The notes below the pieces were generated by a model. That model searched no databases. It worked only from the letters and a program-made list of their open reading frames with translations, and had not been told where the DNA came from. Of a stretch of DNA of 64,000 nt, positions 4,064 through 43,749 are shown one piece after another (the stretch's first letter is position 1; every line of letters starts with the position of its first letter). The translations under genes were made by a program, and so were the position numbers. Origin of the DNA: Halosegnis rubeus (GTDB taxonomy: Archaea > Halobacteriota > Halobacteria > Halobacteriales > Haloarculaceae); NCBI RefSeq assembly GCF_009184545.1, contig NZ_QJOW01000001.1, forward strand, positions 248,001 to 312,000, read 5' to 3'.

Positions 4064-4340
4064 CTTCGAGTTACCTGATTGGTTACCGACTGTCGACGTG
4101 GTCGGCTTACCTTTTGATTTCGGCTATGAACCGTGGCGAACACCGAGTCAACCGCCAGCTCTCCACGCACAATGCGTAGCCCAGCCAATTGTCAGTTAAA
4201 ATGTCGGATTCATCTGGTGGCTAAAGCCACCAGTATTCTCCTTGATTCTGTATAATCTCTGACGATAAGTTTGCAGTGTGATGGACGCTATCCCGGCTAC
4301 GAGAACGTCCGATAGGCTGAGCGAATGGCCGACGTTCGCT
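4064..4340. other. intergenic region with orphan TnpB-type right-end hairpin
   Basis: 277 bp, AT-richer than its surroundings, with no credible gene. The perfect hairpin at 4214-4233 (CTGGTGGCT, loop AA, AGCCACCAG), read on the minus strand, is followed by GATGAATCCG. That is the arrangement seen beside the TnpB gene at 52020. It may be the remnant of an IS200/IS605-type element. Confidence 0.4.
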
Positions 4341-5432
4341 TTACTCACCCTTGTTGCCGACGCCCGCGTTCTCCCCGCTCTTCGCTTCGGTTTCCCCCCA
4401 GTTGAGGTCACGGGATCGGTCGGTCTCCCGGAGGATGAACGGCCCGATGGAGAGCGTGCGCTTCGTCACGGTGACGATGCGAAGAATGTAGGACAACAAG
4501 AACGCGAACGGCAGCAGGGAGACGGCAACGCCCGCGCTCACCACCACGACGAGCGGGCGCACGCCGAACACGGTCCCTGGGAACAGCGCCGGTTCGAGGT
4601 AGACGACGCCTGCGACCGCCGTGAGGAGTGCGGGTACGGACGCGTACAGCATCGTCCGGGAAAGGTCGATGAGCGCCCACTGGAAGTACAGCGTCTTGAA
4701 GTGCTCGCGCGCCGGTCCGAACAGCTCGAGCGCGTCGATGAGTTCGTCGAACGCCGCGCGGGCGTCCTCGGTGAGAACGTCCTCGTTCTCCGCGCGGATT
4801 CGGCGCGCCGCGTACAACTTCCACGAGTAGTTGTAGTTCAGCGCGGAGAATACCACGTCGAACTCCCCGAACTGGGCGTCCTTGAGGCCGTTCTCGACGG
4901 CGTCCGCGTTCCCCTTCACGTTCTCTGTGAACGCGGCCACTTGGTCGTTAAGGGCCTCGTCGTCAATATCCTGAATGGCGTCCGAGACGGCTTTGGCGCG
5001 TCGCTTCGTGAGTTTCACGAGCGACCGGAGGAACACCGAGGGCTGGGCGGGGCTGACGGGTTCCTCGATAACGTCCTCAACGTCCTTCCGGAACGCCATC
5101 GCGCCCTCCATGCGTTCGCGCTGATCTCCGACCGGCCCCAGTTCCTGAGAGAGTACAAGTTGACTGAGCGCGAGCACGAGCGTGACGCCCGTGATAATAG
5201 ACGTCAGCAGCCCCTGAAACAGCGTCTCGATCGGGTCTCCCTGGCTGAACAGCGCCGGCGTCTCGGTCGGGTGGAGGTGCCCGATGATGGCGAGCGCGAG
5301 GAACACGCCCCCCGAGATCCCGGCAGCGACCAGCCACCGGTTCGCGTTCAATAGTAGCCAGAACTTCCGACTGTTCTCCGGCACGCGCTCCCGCATCGTG
5401 TCGCTCGGGCGACTTTTATCACTGTCGCTCAT
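4341..5432 (-). CDS. membrane protein of unknown function
   Basis: A 363-residue protein I cannot assign. Two hydrophobic helices lie near residues 28-50 and 68-95 (LLTSIITGVTLVLALSQLVL). A long soluble, mostly helical region follows (about 100-250), then two more helices near 255-320. The acidic C-tail ends in ENAGVGNKGE. The layout suggests a four-helix membrane protein with a central cytoplasmic or extracellular helical domain. No operon partner is evident. Homologues seem plausible in other haloarchaea, but I do not recognise the family. Confidence 0.65.
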   Translation of the reverse strand: MSDSDKSRPSDTMRERVPENSRKFWLLLNANRWLVAAGISGGVFLALAIIGHLHPTETPALFSQGDPIETLFQGLLTSIITGVTLVLALSQLVLSQELGPVGDQRERMEGAMAFRKDVEDVIEEPVSPAQPSVFLRSLVKLTKRRAKAVSDAIQDIDDEALNDQVAAFTENVKGNADAVENGLKDAQFGEFDVVFSALNYNYSWKLYAARRIRAENEDVLTEDARAAFDELIDALELFGPAREHFKTLYFQWALIDLSRTMLYASVPALLTAVAGVVYLEPALFPGTVFGVRPLVVVVSAGVAVSLLPFAFLLSYILRIVTVTKRTLSIGPFILRETDRSRDLNWGETEAKSGENAGVGNKGE

Positions 5433-5635
5433 ACCAGCCGTATTCCGTTCACGATGGAAAATCCTTGAGGGAACTATCGAAGAGATCTCACACTGTGCTT
5501 ATGGAGTGACTGGCTGTCTCTGTCGAACTGGCTCCTCACTCTGGGTGTCCGCAGAGTTCAACAGCGTTCACCGAGCGATCTACGCCACGCTGGCGAGACG
5601 AAGAGACAGAACACAGCGAACGAGTCAGAGAACCT

Positions 5636-6073
5636 CTATCGCTCTTCGGAGTCGAGGACGCGAATCTGGTCGCCACGAACCGTCACCGGAATTGGGACGG
5701 TCGCCTCGTACAGCTCGACGGTGACCTGGTCTTTTCCCTCGTCGATGCGCTGGACCTGCGCCTTCTCGCCCTTGAACGGGCCGGCGACGAGTTCGACGAT
5801 GTCGCTTTCTGCGATTCCCTCCACGTCCGGCTTCGGAGAGAGGAAGTGCTCGACCTCCGCGATGCCGGACTCGCCGGGGACGACGCCGCGGGAGTGGGGA
5901 ATCTCGTCGAGGATGCGCTCGAAGACGGAACTGTCGTCGGCCTCGACCATGACGTAGGAAGTGAGCGAGTCGGGCGCGAGCGCGGCGTGAATCGACTCCT
6001 CTTCCTTGCTCATGATCATGTCCGCGACGGTCCGCTCCTGTGAGGCCGTGGTCTTGACGGCGAAAATCCCCAT
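5636..6073 (-). CDS. spt5: transcription elongation factor Spt5 (NusG-like)
   Basis: A 145-residue protein starting [20 protein letters not shown]. Residues 1-80 form the NGN domain that contacts RNA polymerase. Residues 85-145 form a KOW domain ([19 protein letters not shown]). Archaeal Spt5 pairs with Spt4 to keep polymerase processive. The frame is open upstream, but the ATG at 6071-6073 overlaps the secE stop as TGATG, so this start is certain. Order ftsZ1-secE-spt5 on one strand is conserved in haloarchaea. Confidence 0.95.
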
Positions 6074-6249
6074 CAGAGACCAGCCCCCGGCACGAACGAC
6101 ATCAGGAGGAAGATGACGAACCCGAGCAGGCCGACGAGCGCGACGCCGGCACCGGCGATGAGTGCGACGCGGGAGAACTCTTCCCACGACGGGGTGCTCG
6201 CCAGCTTCAGCACCCGCACGTAGCTGTTCAGGTCGAAAGGTACGTCCAT
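6073..6249 (-). CDS. secE: preprotein translocase subunit SecE
   Basis: A 58-residue protein, [20 protein letters not shown] followed by [11 protein letters not shown] and a single C-terminal membrane helix ending [11 protein letters not shown]. This is the archaeal SecE/Sec61-gamma pattern: an amphipathic surface helix, a short hinge, then one transmembrane helix that clamps SecY. Its stop overlaps the spt5 start by one base, which implies translational coupling. It lies 68 bp downstream of ftsZ1. Confidence 0.93.
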
Positions 6250-6317
6250 AGAGGTCGTTCCGCGGCTGGCTTTCTATACCTGTTGGTATCCGTCGTCACC
6301 CGAATCGAGACGAATAC

Positions 6318-7544
6318 TTAGTTGATGAACTCCGTCTCGTCGTTGTCGGTGGTGCGCTCCGTCGACTCGCTCGGCGAGCGGTCACCCGCGTGGCGACCGC
6401 CCGCGCCAACGTCACGCTGGCTGGCCTGCTCGCGTTCGGCCTCGCTCTTGCCGTAGATCTGTGGCGACTCGACGCCGGTGACGACGATCATCGTCTCCAT
6501 CTTCCCGTCGAACTCGTTGTTGACCGAGGCACCCCAGATGATGCGGGCGTCAGGGTCGATGCGGTCGTAGATCTCCTCGACGACGCCCTCCGCCTCGTCG
6601 ATGGACATGTCCGGACCGCCGACGACGTTGACGAGCGCGGAGTTCGCGCCGTCGAACTCAACGTCGAGCAGTGGCGACCGGAGCGCCGACCGAATCGAGT
6701 CCTGCGCTTTGTTCTCGGAGTCGGACTCACCGAGCCCGATCATCGCGACGCCGCCGTTTTCCATGATGGTCTTCACGTCAGCGAAGTCCACGTTGACCAG
6801 CCCGGGCTTCGTGATCAGTTCGGTCATCCCCTTGACCGAGCGCATCAGCACGCGGTCACAGATTTTGAATGCGTCCTGTAGCGGGAGGTTCGGCGCGTAA
6901 TCCAGCAGTCGGTCGTTCGGGATGACGATGACCGTATCCGAGACCGCACGCAGACGCTCCAGCCCGGCGTCGGCGTTCGCGCGTCGCCGTTCACCCTCTG
7001 CCGTGAACGGGACCGTCACGATGGAGATGGTGAGGGCGTCCTGTTCCTGTGCGGCCTGTGCGACGACCGGTGCGCTCCCGGTGCCGGTGCCGCCGCCGAG
7101 TCCGGCCGTGATGAACACCATATCCGAACCGTCGATGGACGCCTGGATGTCCTCGATGTTCTCTTGGGCTGCTTCCTCACCGATGCGGGGAACTGAGCCG
7201 GCACCGCGCCCGCCCGTGCGCTGGCGGCCCATCAGAATCTTCGTGTCCGCTTCGACCTCCGTGGCCAGATGCTGTGCGTCCGTGTTGGCGGCGACCAGCT
7301 TCGCGCCATGGATTCCCTCATGTGACATCCGGGTGACGGTGTTGCCGCCCGCGCCGCCACAGCCGACGACGGTAATCTTCGTCTCCAAGTCCTTGACGAC
7401 GCTCGCGAGTTCGTCGTCCGTCATGGTCCCCGAAGCGCTCGGGGACTCGTCTGTCTCGACCGGTGTCGACTCCGTAGGTGGGGCCGACTCCTCGTCGGCC
7501 GTCTCCTCGGCTTCGTCGATGGCGTCGTCGATGATGGAATCCAT
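6318..7544 (-). CDS. ftsZ1: cell division protein FtsZ1
   Basis: A 408-residue tubulin-superfamily GTPase. An acidic N-terminal extension (1-55) precedes the GTPase domain. The tubulin signature GGGTGTG is at residues 150-156, and NTDAQHL and the GCGGAGGN nucleotide loop are present. The C-terminal domain holds [20 protein letters not shown]. The divergent tail ends DNDETEFIN. Adjacency to secE-spt5 and the N-terminus [14 protein letters not shown] identify the FtsZ1 paralogue, one of the two FtsZ proteins of haloarchaeal division. I chose ATG at 7544 over an in-frame ATG 17 codons upstream because of the conserved N-terminus. Confidence 0.95.
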
Positions 7545-7750
7545 TATGCTCCCGTTTGCGCCATGCAGGTATTGTATCTTTCCCTGTTTCGGCAACAGAG
7601 ACCGGGATTTTGCCGTGAGGACGCAAGTCAGCCGAATCGCAGTGATAAATCAAATGACGCGATATAAAACTCGTTATCCCGCCTCACAGTGGCGACTTGC
7701 CGATGACGGTCGTGGGAGAAAAAGGAACTCCGATTATCGCCGAGTAGACC

Positions 7751-8518
7751 CTACAGCGCGGAGTAGCCGCCGTCGACCACCAGCTCGTGGCCCGTCACGA
7801 ACGAGGCGTCGTCGCTGGCGAGGAAGGCGATTGCGCCGGCGATCTCTTCAGGCTCGCCGATGCGCTTGAGCGCGTACTGCGACTCAAGCGAGTCGCGGGC
7901 CGCCTCGGGATCTTCGTGGTCTTCCAGTCCACCCTGCACCATCGGGGTGTCGGTGAAGCCGGGGCAGACGGCGTTGGCCCTGACGCCGTAGCGTCCGAGT
8001 TCGCCCGCGATGGAGCGCGTAAACTTCGCGACGCCGCCTTTCGTGAACGCGTACGCGCTCGACCACGGCTGGCCGATGACGCCGGCCAGCGACGCCGTGT
8101 TGACGATATTGCCCGACCCCTGTTCCTTCAGATGCGGAATCGCGGCGCGACAGCCGTTCCAGACGCCCATCGCGTTCACGCCGAAGACGCGGTCGCGGTC
8201 CGTCAGCGACACCTCCTCCATCGGCCCGCTCGTGTGCGAGATGCCGGCGTTGTTCACCATCACGTCGAGCCCGTGGGCTTCGACGGTCGCGTCGACTGCG
8301 TCTTGGACCGCCTCGGCGTCGGTCACGTCGAGTTCGACCGACTCGGCCGTGCCGGCCACGTCCGACTCGGCAATCTGCTCGACCGTCTCTGCGGCCCCGT
8401 CGGCGTCGATGTCGGCTGCGACGACCGTCGCTCCCTCGCGGGCGAACCGCCGTGCACTCTCTCGCCCGATTCCGCTCCCGCCGCCGGTGACGAACACCGT
8501 CGTGTCATTGAATCGCAT
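7751..8518 (-). CDS. short-chain dehydrogenase/reductase (SDR)
   Basis: A 255-residue protein, start MRFNDTTVFVTGGGSGIGRE. It has the Rossmann TGGGSGIG motif (residues 10-17), the DIDADG acidic residue that favours NAD(H), and NNAGISH. The catalytic Ser is in TASLAG, and the catalytic residues appear as YAFTKGGV (Y-x3-K). It ends in VDGGYSAL, typical of FabG-like classical SDRs. The oxidised substrate cannot be deduced. The ATG at 8518 places the Rossmann fold at the normal distance. Confidence 0.88.
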   Translation of the reverse strand: MRFNDTTVFVTGGGSGIGRESARRFAREGATVVAADIDADGAAETVEQIAESDVAGTAESVELDVTDAEAVQDAVDATVEAHGLDVMVNNAGISHTSGPMEEVSLTDRDRVFGVNAMGVWNGCRAAIPHLKEQGSGNIVNTASLAGVIGQPWSSAYAFTKGGVAKFTRSIAGELGRYGVRANAVCPGFTDTPMVQGGLEDHEDPEAARDSLESQYALKRIGEPEEIAGAIAFLASDDASFVTGHELVVDGGYSAL

Positions 8519-8808
8519 ACCGTCTCGTGTGTGGGCTGGCATATAACTGATTGCTGTTTGGCGTGCCATCGGCTGACACGAGCGCGTTAGGGCTAAGTGT
8601 CCGGCTCAGAATATTCGACCATGAGCCGGCGCGCAATCGTGTTCGACCCGCTCGCGCCGCCCGCCAGCCGACTGGCCGGATAGCTGCAGCACTCGTCTCG
8701 TTTTCGGTTACCAGCTATCCGCACGCGAATGACGCCACACCACCGGCCGCAGCCGCGGCCACTCGACCACTCGCATCGCTCGATAACCACACGCCTACGG
8801 GGGGACCG
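8519..8808. other. divergent intergenic region, SDR/MFS
   Basis: 290 bp between two divergent genes. A 20-codon open frame (8621-8683) begins with ATG and could be a leader peptide, but I see no supporting signal. Otherwise this is promoter and 5' leader sequence. The stretch just before 8809 contains GGGGGGA, a possible ribosome-binding run. Confidence 0.4.
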
Positions 8809-42094: not shown

Positions 42095-42102
42095 GTTTAT
42101 AC
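42095..42102. repeat. target-site duplication, left copy
   Basis: GTTTATAC lies directly before the left terminal inverted repeat. The same eight bases follow the right end at 43742-43749. Eight base pairs is the duplication length of the ISH1 subgroup of IS5. Confidence 0.85.
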
Positions 42103-42119
42103 GGCCTTGTTGAAACCCT
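42103..42119 (+). repeat. IS left terminal inverted repeat
   Basis: GGCCTTGTTGAAACCCT; its exact reverse complement is at 43725-43741. The similarity stops at base 18. Confidence 0.88.
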
Positions 42120-42137
42120 TGCTGACAAACATGACTG

Positions 42138-43007
42138 GTGAGTAGCTGGAGGAAGATGGATGCTCTCCCAAAGTCACGACTTCTTCGATTCGTTGAACGG
42201 GCTATGGTGCTGGCTCGCCGTGCTGTGGCACGGTTCTCGACACGCTATTCACGGAAGCGGTTCACGCTCCGGCAACATGTTGTCCTGCTCTGTCTCAAGG
42301 TGAAGAAGACAACAACGTACCGCGATCTTGTTGACGAACTTATCGAGATGCCTCGCATTCGTGACGCCCTTGATCTCGATTCGATCCCTGCACCCTCGAC
42401 ACTCTGCAAGGCGTTTGACCGCTTGGAGATGGCCGTCTGGCGAGTGCTGCTGAACGTTTCACTTGCGGACTTGCCGCTGAACGGTGTCACTGGCATCGAT
42501 GCGTCCGGGTTCGAGCGGGCTCATGCCTCTACTCACTACACGAAGCGAACGAACCTCACCATCCAGCAGTTGAAAACGACGCTGTTGGTCGATACAAAGA
42601 CCAACGCCGTTCTCGATATTCACGTGACCACAACGCGGAAGCACGATACGCAAATCGCGCCACAGGTAGTGAAACGGAACAGACAGTCCATCGCGGTGTT
42701 GACCGGTGACAAGGGATACGACGACCAGAAACTTCGGCGGCTCGCCCGTGAGCATGATATTCGACCACTAATCAAGCATCGTGAGTTCACCTCACTCCAC
42801 AAGGCGTGGAATACACGGTTGGACAGCGATCTCTACCACAGACGGAACATGAACGAGACAGTCAACGCGGCGATCAAACAGAAATTCGGGGCCTTCGTGC
42901 GGTCGCGTCTCTGGTGGAAGCAGTTCCGCGAACTCGTTATCAAGTGCATCGTTCACAATCTGGAGCGAAGCCCCGCTATTTCACACAAGGAGTCCGACTG
43001 TCCATAA
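42138..43007 (+). CDS. IS5 family transposase (DDE)
   Basis: A 289-residue protein. It has an N-terminal DNA-binding part (MSSWRKMDALPKSRLLRFVE, RFTLRQHVVLLCLKVKKTTT), then the DDE core: first Asp in GVTGIDASGFERAHAS, second Asp in VLTGDKGYDD, and Glu in RRNMNETVNAAIKQKFG. N-x-x-E and the Y-x-R spacing suit the Transposase_11/IS5 family. Start: the M at 42138 is non-ATG (GTG); the ATG at 42156 (MDALPKSRLL) is an equally good alternative. No frameshift or stop is visible, so it should be active. Confidence 0.88.
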   Translation: MSSWRKMDALPKSRLLRFVERAMVLARRAVARFSTRYSRKRFTLRQHVVLLCLKVKKTTTYRDLVDELIEMPRIRDALDLDSIPAPSTLCKAFDRLEMAVWRVLLNVSLADLPLNGVTGIDASGFERAHASTHYTKRTNLTIQQLKTTLLVDTKTNAVLDIHVTTTRKHDTQIAPQVVKRNRQSIAVLTGDKGYDDQKLRRLAREHDIRPLIKHREFTSLHKAWNTRLDSDLYHRRNMNETVNAAIKQKFGAFVRSRLWWKQFRELVIKCIVHNLERSPAISHKESDCP

Positions 43008-43023
43008 TTTCGAGAGGAGGGGG

Positions 43024-43046
43024 CTGCTGAATACAGAGCGTGAATA
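43024..43046 (+). repeat. inverted repeat framing the passenger gene, left copy
   Basis: A 23-bp segment starting CTGCTGAATA. It matches the reverse complement of 43677-43699 at 20 of 23 positions. It lies 16 bp after the transposase stop and 49 bp before the pilin start. Confidence 0.75.
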
Positions 43047-43064
43047 CAGCAGCAAGTCCGGTGA

Positions 43065-43072
43065 TTATATTA
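43065..43072 (+). promoter_or_regulatory. TATA box of the pilin-like passenger gene
   Basis: TTATATTA lies 24-31 bp upstream of the ATG at 43096. The passenger therefore seems to have its own leaderless promoter inside the insertion sequence. Confidence 0.65.
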
Positions 43073-43095
43073 CTCGGTAGCGGATAGACATAGCA

Positions 43096-43665
43096 ATGAA
43101 TCAGCAGGATCGTGCTGTCACACCTGTTATTTCGACTATTCTTATGGTCGCAATTGTCGTTATTTTAGCTGCGACAGTCTCTGTGTTTTTTCTCGGTGTG
43201 GTAGAAGATGTTAATGAACCTGCGCCGAATGTCGCGGATACAACTGGTGAGTTTGTCATTGACGAGGAGGACGCTGAGGACAATCAGATCGTCCGAATTA
43301 CACATATTGCTGGCGACAGCGTTGATGTTGAAAATATAGAAATCATCGTTCGTGCATCCGGCCCTGATGTAGATACCGAGGCACGGTTGGTCGATCTTCC
43401 TGGCGATGGATTTTTCACCAGATCTCTTGCCGACAGCAATATTGACGGAAACGATGATCTCATAGATCAAGGCTTCGAGTCTGCTCGAATCATCGTTGTT
43501 GATGACTCAAATACGTGGACCGCTGGAACGACAATTGAATTTCGAATAAACACAGGCGAGGCTGACTTCCGCGAAGGAGAGTCTCCTGAAGCTGACGAAC
43601 TTGAAGTTCTTATCGTCCACACTCCATCGAATGCGATTATCTCAGAACACACATTCGCGCCGTAG
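43096..43665 (+). CDS. archaeal type IV pilin-like protein (passenger of the IS)
   Basis: A 189-residue protein, start MNQQDRAVTPVISTILMVAI. The charged N-terminus, then AVTPVISTILMVAIVVILAA with a hydrophobic helix to about residue 33, is the class III/type IV pilin signal of haloarchaea (PF07790-like). Prepilin peptidase would cleave near the R6-A7 region. The rest is acidic and beta-rich (ENIEIIVRASGPDVDTEARL, ARIIVVDDSN), as in pilin head domains. The gene is clearly AT-richer than its neighbours, suggesting transfer. It lies between the transposase and the right end of the IS, inside the target duplication. Confidence 0.82.
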   Translation: MNQQDRAVTPVISTILMVAIVVILAATVSVFFLGVVEDVNEPAPNVADTTGEFVIDEEDAEDNQIVRITHIAGDSVDVENIEIIVRASGPDVDTEARLVDLPGDGFFTRSLADSNIDGNDDLIDQGFESARIIVVDDSNTWTAGTTIEFRINTGEADFREGESPEADELEVLIVHTPSNAIISEHTFAP

Positions 43666-43676
43666 CAGCAGTGCGA

Positions 43677-43699
43677 TATTCGCGCCCTCTATTCAGCAG
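43677..43699 (-). repeat. inverted repeat framing the passenger gene, right copy
   Basis: The reverse complement begins CTGCTGAATA and matches 43024-43046 at 20 of 23 bases. It is followed at 43692-43709 by an almost complete palindrome, TTCAGCAGGACTGCTGAA, which lies next to the IS right end. Confidence 0.75.
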
Positions 43700-43724
43700 G
43701 ACTGCTGAAACCTATCATCGAATG

Positions 43725-43741
43725 AGGGTTTCAACAAGGCC
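43725..43741 (-). repeat. IS right terminal inverted repeat
   Basis: AGGGTTTCAACAAGGCC, the exact reverse complement of 42103-42119. Confidence 0.88.
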
Positions 43742-43749
43742 GTTTATAC
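43742..43749. repeat. target-site duplication, right copy
   Basis: GTTTATAC repeats the left flank at 42095-42102. Joining the flanks rebuilds an uninterrupted grpE-dnaK spacer. Confidence 0.85.

Follow-up and report, generated by a model that had tools for sequence, protein, structure and literature searches.

The stretch of DNA analysed here (64,000 nt of Halosegnis rubeus contig NZ_QJOW01000001.1, hereafter the window, to which all coordinates refer) contains between grpE and dnaK an IS5-family element of 1,639 bp (42103-43741), in which the transposase gene is followed by a pilin gene lying between two inner sequence motifs, L and R. From left to right, the following features can be distinguished:

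42095..42102, no strand: left copy of the 8-bp target duplication GTTTATAC (from sequence and repeat finder; present as a single copy at the empty site of congeners)
42103..42119, plus strand: left terminal inverted repeat of 17 bp, GGCCTTGTTGAAACCCT (repeat finder; same end in relatives)
42138..43007, plus strand: IS5-family transposase, 289 aa from the GTG at 42138, with an ATG at 42156
43025..43051, plus strand: L motif of 27 nt, TGCTGAATACAGAGCGTGAATACAGCA, left cassette boundary (relatives, covariance model and break points)
43052..43677, no strand: cassette DNA of 626 bp containing the pilin gene
43065..43072, plus strand: predicted AT-rich, TATA-like element TTATATTA of the pilin gene, with counterparts of similar sequence in related pilin cassettes
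43096..43665, plus strand: type IV pilin of 189 aa (Pfam Pilin_N, NCBIfam TIGR02537)
43678..43698, plus strand: R motif of 21 nt, ATTCGCGCCCTCTATTCAGCA, right cassette boundary (relatives, covariance model and break points)
43699..43724, plus strand: constant right module, from R to the terminal repeat (right-end listing)
43725..43741, minus strand: right terminal inverted repeat of 17 bp, the perfect inverse of GGCCTTGTTGAAACCCT (repeat finder)
43742..43749, no strand: right copy of the target duplication GTTTATAC (repeat finder; empty site of a congener)

The transposase reading frame scores 213.7 bits against the NCBIfam IS5 model NF033579 (cut-off 140) and also matches Pfam DDE_Tnp_1, and the repeat finder reports a further, inner pair of inverted repeats (43024-43051 and 43672-43699) that brackets the pilin. 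The complete element is single-copy in the host genome. When both flanks are joined with one GTTTATAC, they align without a gap to the congener L318 (383/404), and three further congeners (L319, L320 and L321) are uninterrupted across GTTTATACG, so that the empty site is seen in four congeners in total. The ungapped flank alignment and the congeners that read through thus demonstrate a true insertion with a real target duplication, and the insertion of the element at the grpE-dnaK site is certain. The initial annotation had proposed that transposase and pilin form one mobile unit, and the matching ends, the target duplication and the empty site in the congeners all bear this out. A native pilin locus or a captured neighbouring gene can be ruled out by the empty site, as the congeners have no pilin between grpE and dnaK, and an origin of the terminal repeats from different elements can likewise be ruled out, since the ends match each other and so does the duplication. 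Judging by the 8-bp duplication and by the call made in the initial annotation, the element probably belongs to the ISH1 subgroup.

With respect to the pilin itself, the match to Pfam Pilin_N is clear (61.4 bits against a cut-off of 25.2, E = 1.6e-16) and the reading frame looks intact. The upstream AT-rich element that had been ascribed to it is indeed present, with TTATATTA lying just upstream of the pilin ATG, and should be read as TATA-like, i.e., as a predicted promoter only. At 11 of 21 loci comprising the window pilin and its closest relatives, L is found upstream and R downstream (reversed control, 0), and nearly all of the more distant pilins (n = 12) lack both motifs, the exception being L153 with a motif on one side. 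One of the pilin cassettes, L061, has no transposase and is 93% identical to the window cassette over the first 332 nt, after which it diverges. Taken together, these locus counts and L061 indicate that pilins of this group recur as a cassette whose start is conserved and whose end varies. In L177, L174, L165 and L061 the pilin cassettes carry L, R and degenerate ends resembling the terminal repeats, and no match to the window transposase is found nearby; on their sequence layout they look like non-autonomous elements. One pilin cassette occurs twice in a single genome (L167/L168), the interior being identical at 628/628 positions. In L167 (G069), a copy of this duplicated cassette is flanked by two related tyrosine recombinases of about 367-381 aa (4207-5310 and 7587-8732), which belong to a family other than the recombinase IntH described below. 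The pilin is therefore not a fixed passenger, as close relatives are found between the same inner motifs without the window transposase, and the backbone carries other genes elsewhere.

Copies of the element were sought in 391 Halobacteria genomes. The search found copies that match the left part of the element and end near query position 957, corresponding to window position 43051. Those relatives that could be delimited have their second terminal repeat at a distance of 1.5 to 6.8 kb, most of them with perfect 8-bp duplications. The delimited copies close to the window transposase carry foreign DNA between the transposase and the right end, and these cargoes are unrelated to each other: besides the pilin they comprise a PHO4 transporter, an amine oxidase, a cytochrome P450, a metallophosphoesterase, a multicopper oxidase, MgtE, a formate/nitrite transporter, a thioesterase and a bactofilin-like protein, and the element of Halobaculum gomorrense (L036) holds a second pilin. 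The PHO4 cargo is common to the transposons L052 and L062 at 98.5% identity, one of the two transposases being truncated. Several elements hold more than one cassette, with internal R-L junctions (two each for L036, L040 and L071, and four for L045), and their target duplications are perfect or near-perfect. A search for cargo-free members of this IS clade turned up none. Like ISH1-like IS5 elements, the window element has an IS5-type DDE transposase, 17-bp terminal repeats and an 8-bp duplication; unlike these elements, which are about 1 kb long and hold the transposase only, it measures 1,639 bp with the pilin and belongs to a set of delimited relatives of 1.5-6.8 kb with an exchangeable cassette between L and R. 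The expectation of the initial annotation that a transposase-only element of about 1 kb is the rule and a cargo the exception is therefore not upheld for this clade, since cargo is present in the delimited close relatives of the window transposase.

The L motif (consensus TGCTGAATACAGAGGATGNATTCAGCA) lies 3' of the transposase, at about position 923 of the element in most relatives, and the R motif (consensus ATACGCGCNCTGTATTCAGCA) begins, in most elements, 64 nt before the right end; in a few elements L or R is degenerate and scores below threshold. The same motifs are found in arrays of genes, and a covariance model built for the array sites recovers both halves in the window, at 43007-43051 (E = 5e-6) and at 43682-43716 (E = 5e-5). 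While the mobile pilin unit of the initial annotation stands, these inner motifs, which tie the element to what appears to be a class-wide cassette system, had been missed.

In 301 kb of chosen regions, R was found 50 times and L 48 times, compared with 0 and 2 times, respectively, in the reversed sequence. The spacing from the start of R to the start of the following L is exactly 60 nt in 29 of 37 distinct pairs, giving a junction of 87 nt that consists of R, a partly conserved spacer of 39 nt, and L. A conserved fold was not detected in this junction, the model of 26 sites yielding 2 predicted pairs without covariation and -0.13 kcal/mol; an attC-like folded site is accordingly ruled out for these junctions. 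A search of two array loci for known RNA families returned none. With the junction model, 175 of 194 Halobacteria genomes show sites at E <= 1e-3 and 39 of 53 at E <= 1e-5, and at the latter threshold none of about 242 genomes from elsewhere in the phylum has a junction. In 20 array regions neighbouring junctions lie on the same strand in 79 of 79 cases, with a median cassette of 851 bp; as these regions were picked for junction richness, the strand result describes arrays and not every junction. One genome contains an array of about 35 junctions in 36 kb, mostly with one short gene on either strand between neighbours, including genes for methyltransferases, RibD_C, a CNNM/CorC transporter, RidA-like and DUF7537 proteins and membrane proteins. 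Over all loci fetched, the number of distinct complete cassettes amounts to 251. Within an array cassette of L268 there is a TnpB/OrfB_IS605 gene (5406-6734). In L220 and L221, both on contig 4 of G367 (114 kb), two copies of one motif layout stand about 93 kb apart, which suggests a large duplication or an assembly overlap.

Cassettes are shared between the arrays and the transposons. A 968-bp cassette of a chromosomal array of Haloprofundus type (L267) recurs as IS cargo on a plasmid of Haladaptatus halobius (L093) with 91% identity over its full length, and an array cassette of another genome (L241) matches the IS cargo of Halorubrum sp. Atlit-26R (L110) at 97% identity. For a cassette present in two contexts, identity begins in L around CAGAG and stops in R right after CGCGC, as read base by base in four pairs, L167/L168 included. 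In turn, where the same backbone carries different cassettes (the window, L032 and L036), these same bases mark the end and the return of identity, and from CGCGC onwards the right module, together with R and the terminal repeat, is identical between the window and L032 at 61/61 positions. From these positions we infer crossover regions at CAGAG near 43034-43038 for L and at CGCGC (43681-43685) for R in the window. The insertion of a circle at one site would bring the spacer along, which the observed breaks do not; they therefore agree with one crossover in L plus another in R, and a double-site exchange is proposed on the basis of these few pairs.

A candidate for the enzyme is a tyrosine recombinase of about 224-240 aa, here called IntH (an example is WP_226008235.1 of Natrinema salinisoli), the gene of which is placed inside the junction, flanked by R and L, in array orientation. 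R is found upstream and L downstream of IntH in 12 of 22 close members of the family and in 0 of 4 distant members, and IntH also occurs inside two transposon loci (L037 and L038). The Pfam match covers the catalytic domain only, and against the integron-integrase model TIGR02249 IntH attains a partial match of 20.8 bits (cut-off 265). It is 45% identical to Int1 of the Natrialba phage phiCh1 over 97% of its length and 49% identical to the integrase of HCTV-5, and in the phiCh1 record int1 lies inside the annotated invertible tail-fibre segment. Its position and kinship make IntH a reasoned candidate for the enzyme of L/R exchange. However, it is present in only 66 of 292 genomes, and a search of the genome to which the window belongs gave no match. 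As IntH is patchy and the junctions are nearly universal, it may act from elsewhere, be often lost, or not be the enzyme. A second family of recombinases (349-371 aa) was observed near three arrays (L277, 9471-10520; L278, 12663-13778 on the reverse strand; L286, 15449-16534 on the reverse strand), in one case ending about 110 bp ahead of the first junction. These proteins might possibly be the main enzyme instead, but their genes sit outside the junctions.

Comparative evidence lends strong support to what would be a haloarchaeal cassette system, and exchange at L and R would be its best-supported mechanism, as read from the traces that it appears to have left. The window element probably represents a carrier transposon of this system, and we hold this reading with reasonable confidence. 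Its layout is terminal repeat, transposase, L, cassette, R and terminal repeat, and cassettes would be exchanged through two crossovers, one pairing L with L and the other R with R. Since the centres of L and R differ (CAGAGGAT versus CGCGC), a cassette would be swapped between fixed landing sites. IntH might act on the transposon from elsewhere, which is the less certain part of the scheme, and the IS5 transposase would then move the landing site together with its current cassette to new places. The pilin would be one among many cassettes, adding a surface protein wherever it lands, and might in this way alter adhesion or virus binding, as the initial annotation had suggested. The broader proposition, that the Halobacteria as a class possess a cassette system of their own, unrelated to integrons, with a tyrosine recombinase of the phage-inversion type, double-site exchange and IS5 carriers, seems somewhat better than an even bet.

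Passenger-carrying insertion sequences are a known class, and with its matching ends the element is a genuine transposon. It could be argued that a plain insertion sequence took up a neighbouring pilin gene by using a more distant right end, L and R being functionless parts of its ends. This is very unlikely, since L and R stand at fixed places around unrelated cargo in many elements, and since the same motifs bound array cassettes without this IS, cargo being common to elements and arrays from end to end. The arrays in turn might have arisen by repeated insertion of the R-39-L sequence, if this were a MITE derived from an element that carries IntH and is bounded by R and L: IntH does lie between R and L as it would in an autonomous parent, and the 39-nt spacer would then represent an internal deletion. 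However, 79 of 79 neighbours share the same strand, the shared units are the DNA from L to R and not from R to L, and around the cargo of the IS5 elements the order of the two motifs is the opposite one, with L and R close to the two different ends. The strand uniformity and the unit boundaries disfavour MITE insertion as the cause of the arrays, and we regard it as highly improbable.

Haloarchaea recombine readily, and homologous recombination or gene conversion between the conserved flanks L and R could yield some of the same breaks, in which case a dedicated recombinase would have no present role. In line with this, L and R are the only conserved sequence common to all arrays, and IntH is absent from many genomes. 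However, the two motifs are imperfect and span just 21-27 nt, which is little for homologous recombination, the breaks are located at the centre of these motifs, which consist of two inverted arms, and a recombinase gene lies within the junction itself; such an origin is therefore unlikely.

The proposed site-specific exchange has several features in common with integrons, namely one-way arrays of small cassettes with a conserved site between them, sets with and without a recombinase as well as transposon-borne versions, and cassettes that are common to unrelated contexts and end at the site. However, in contrast to the attC hairpin the haloarchaeal junction has no conserved hairpin fold, IntH fails the integron-integrase cut-off, IntI being distinguished by an extra domain, and instead of an attI site next to the integrase gene with the array on one side, the IntH gene is located within a junction and has cassettes to its left and right (L285/L287). 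Moreover, the cassette genes lie on either strand, and the breaks fall at two separate motifs. In phiCh1 the homologous recombinase gene int1 also lies between inverted motifs, but there one pair of tail-fibre genes is concerned, whereas the haloarchaeal motifs bound hundreds of unrelated cassettes; the 87-nt site was sought at the phiCh1 int1 locus and not found. The proposed logic resembles that of laboratory recombinase-mediated cassette exchange with Cre or Flp, which likewise uses two inverted, incompatible sites with different centres between which the interior is replaced. Unlike this technique, the haloarchaeal case is natural and occurs in arrays, its activity being read from break points.

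Halobacteria are known for heavy gene exchange. No report of haloarchaeal cassettes of this kind was met in the open-access PMC literature, and closed journals or preprints may hold one. Archaeal integrons have been described by Ghaly et al. 2022 (PMC9668308), a paper with no mention of haloarchaea or of Halobacter- names, and cassettes are not mentioned in a review of archaeal tyrosine recombinases (PMC8371274). If the present reading holds, most haloarchaeal genomes would hold arrays of ready-made genes, many of them for the cell envelope, which would be swapped at defined sites and carried by transposons between chromosomes, plasmids and species. This would constitute a route of gene capture beside the bacterial integrons and a natural counterpart of recombinase-mediated cassette exchange, and the pilin cassettes would provide a concrete means of changing surface structures.

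As for the wider relationships of the carrier, a more distant sister IS5 group of 66-71% identity (L096, L099, L102, L103 and L125, at 69-70%) has 8-bp duplications and a length of 1.2-2.5 kb, and L, R and cassettes are absent from it at the threshold used; another member of this group, L105 (66% identity), shows one weak L. Transposase relatives with 46-52% identity were also observed far outside the haloarchaea, in L112 and L128, on contigs binned as Candidatus Bipolaricaulota.
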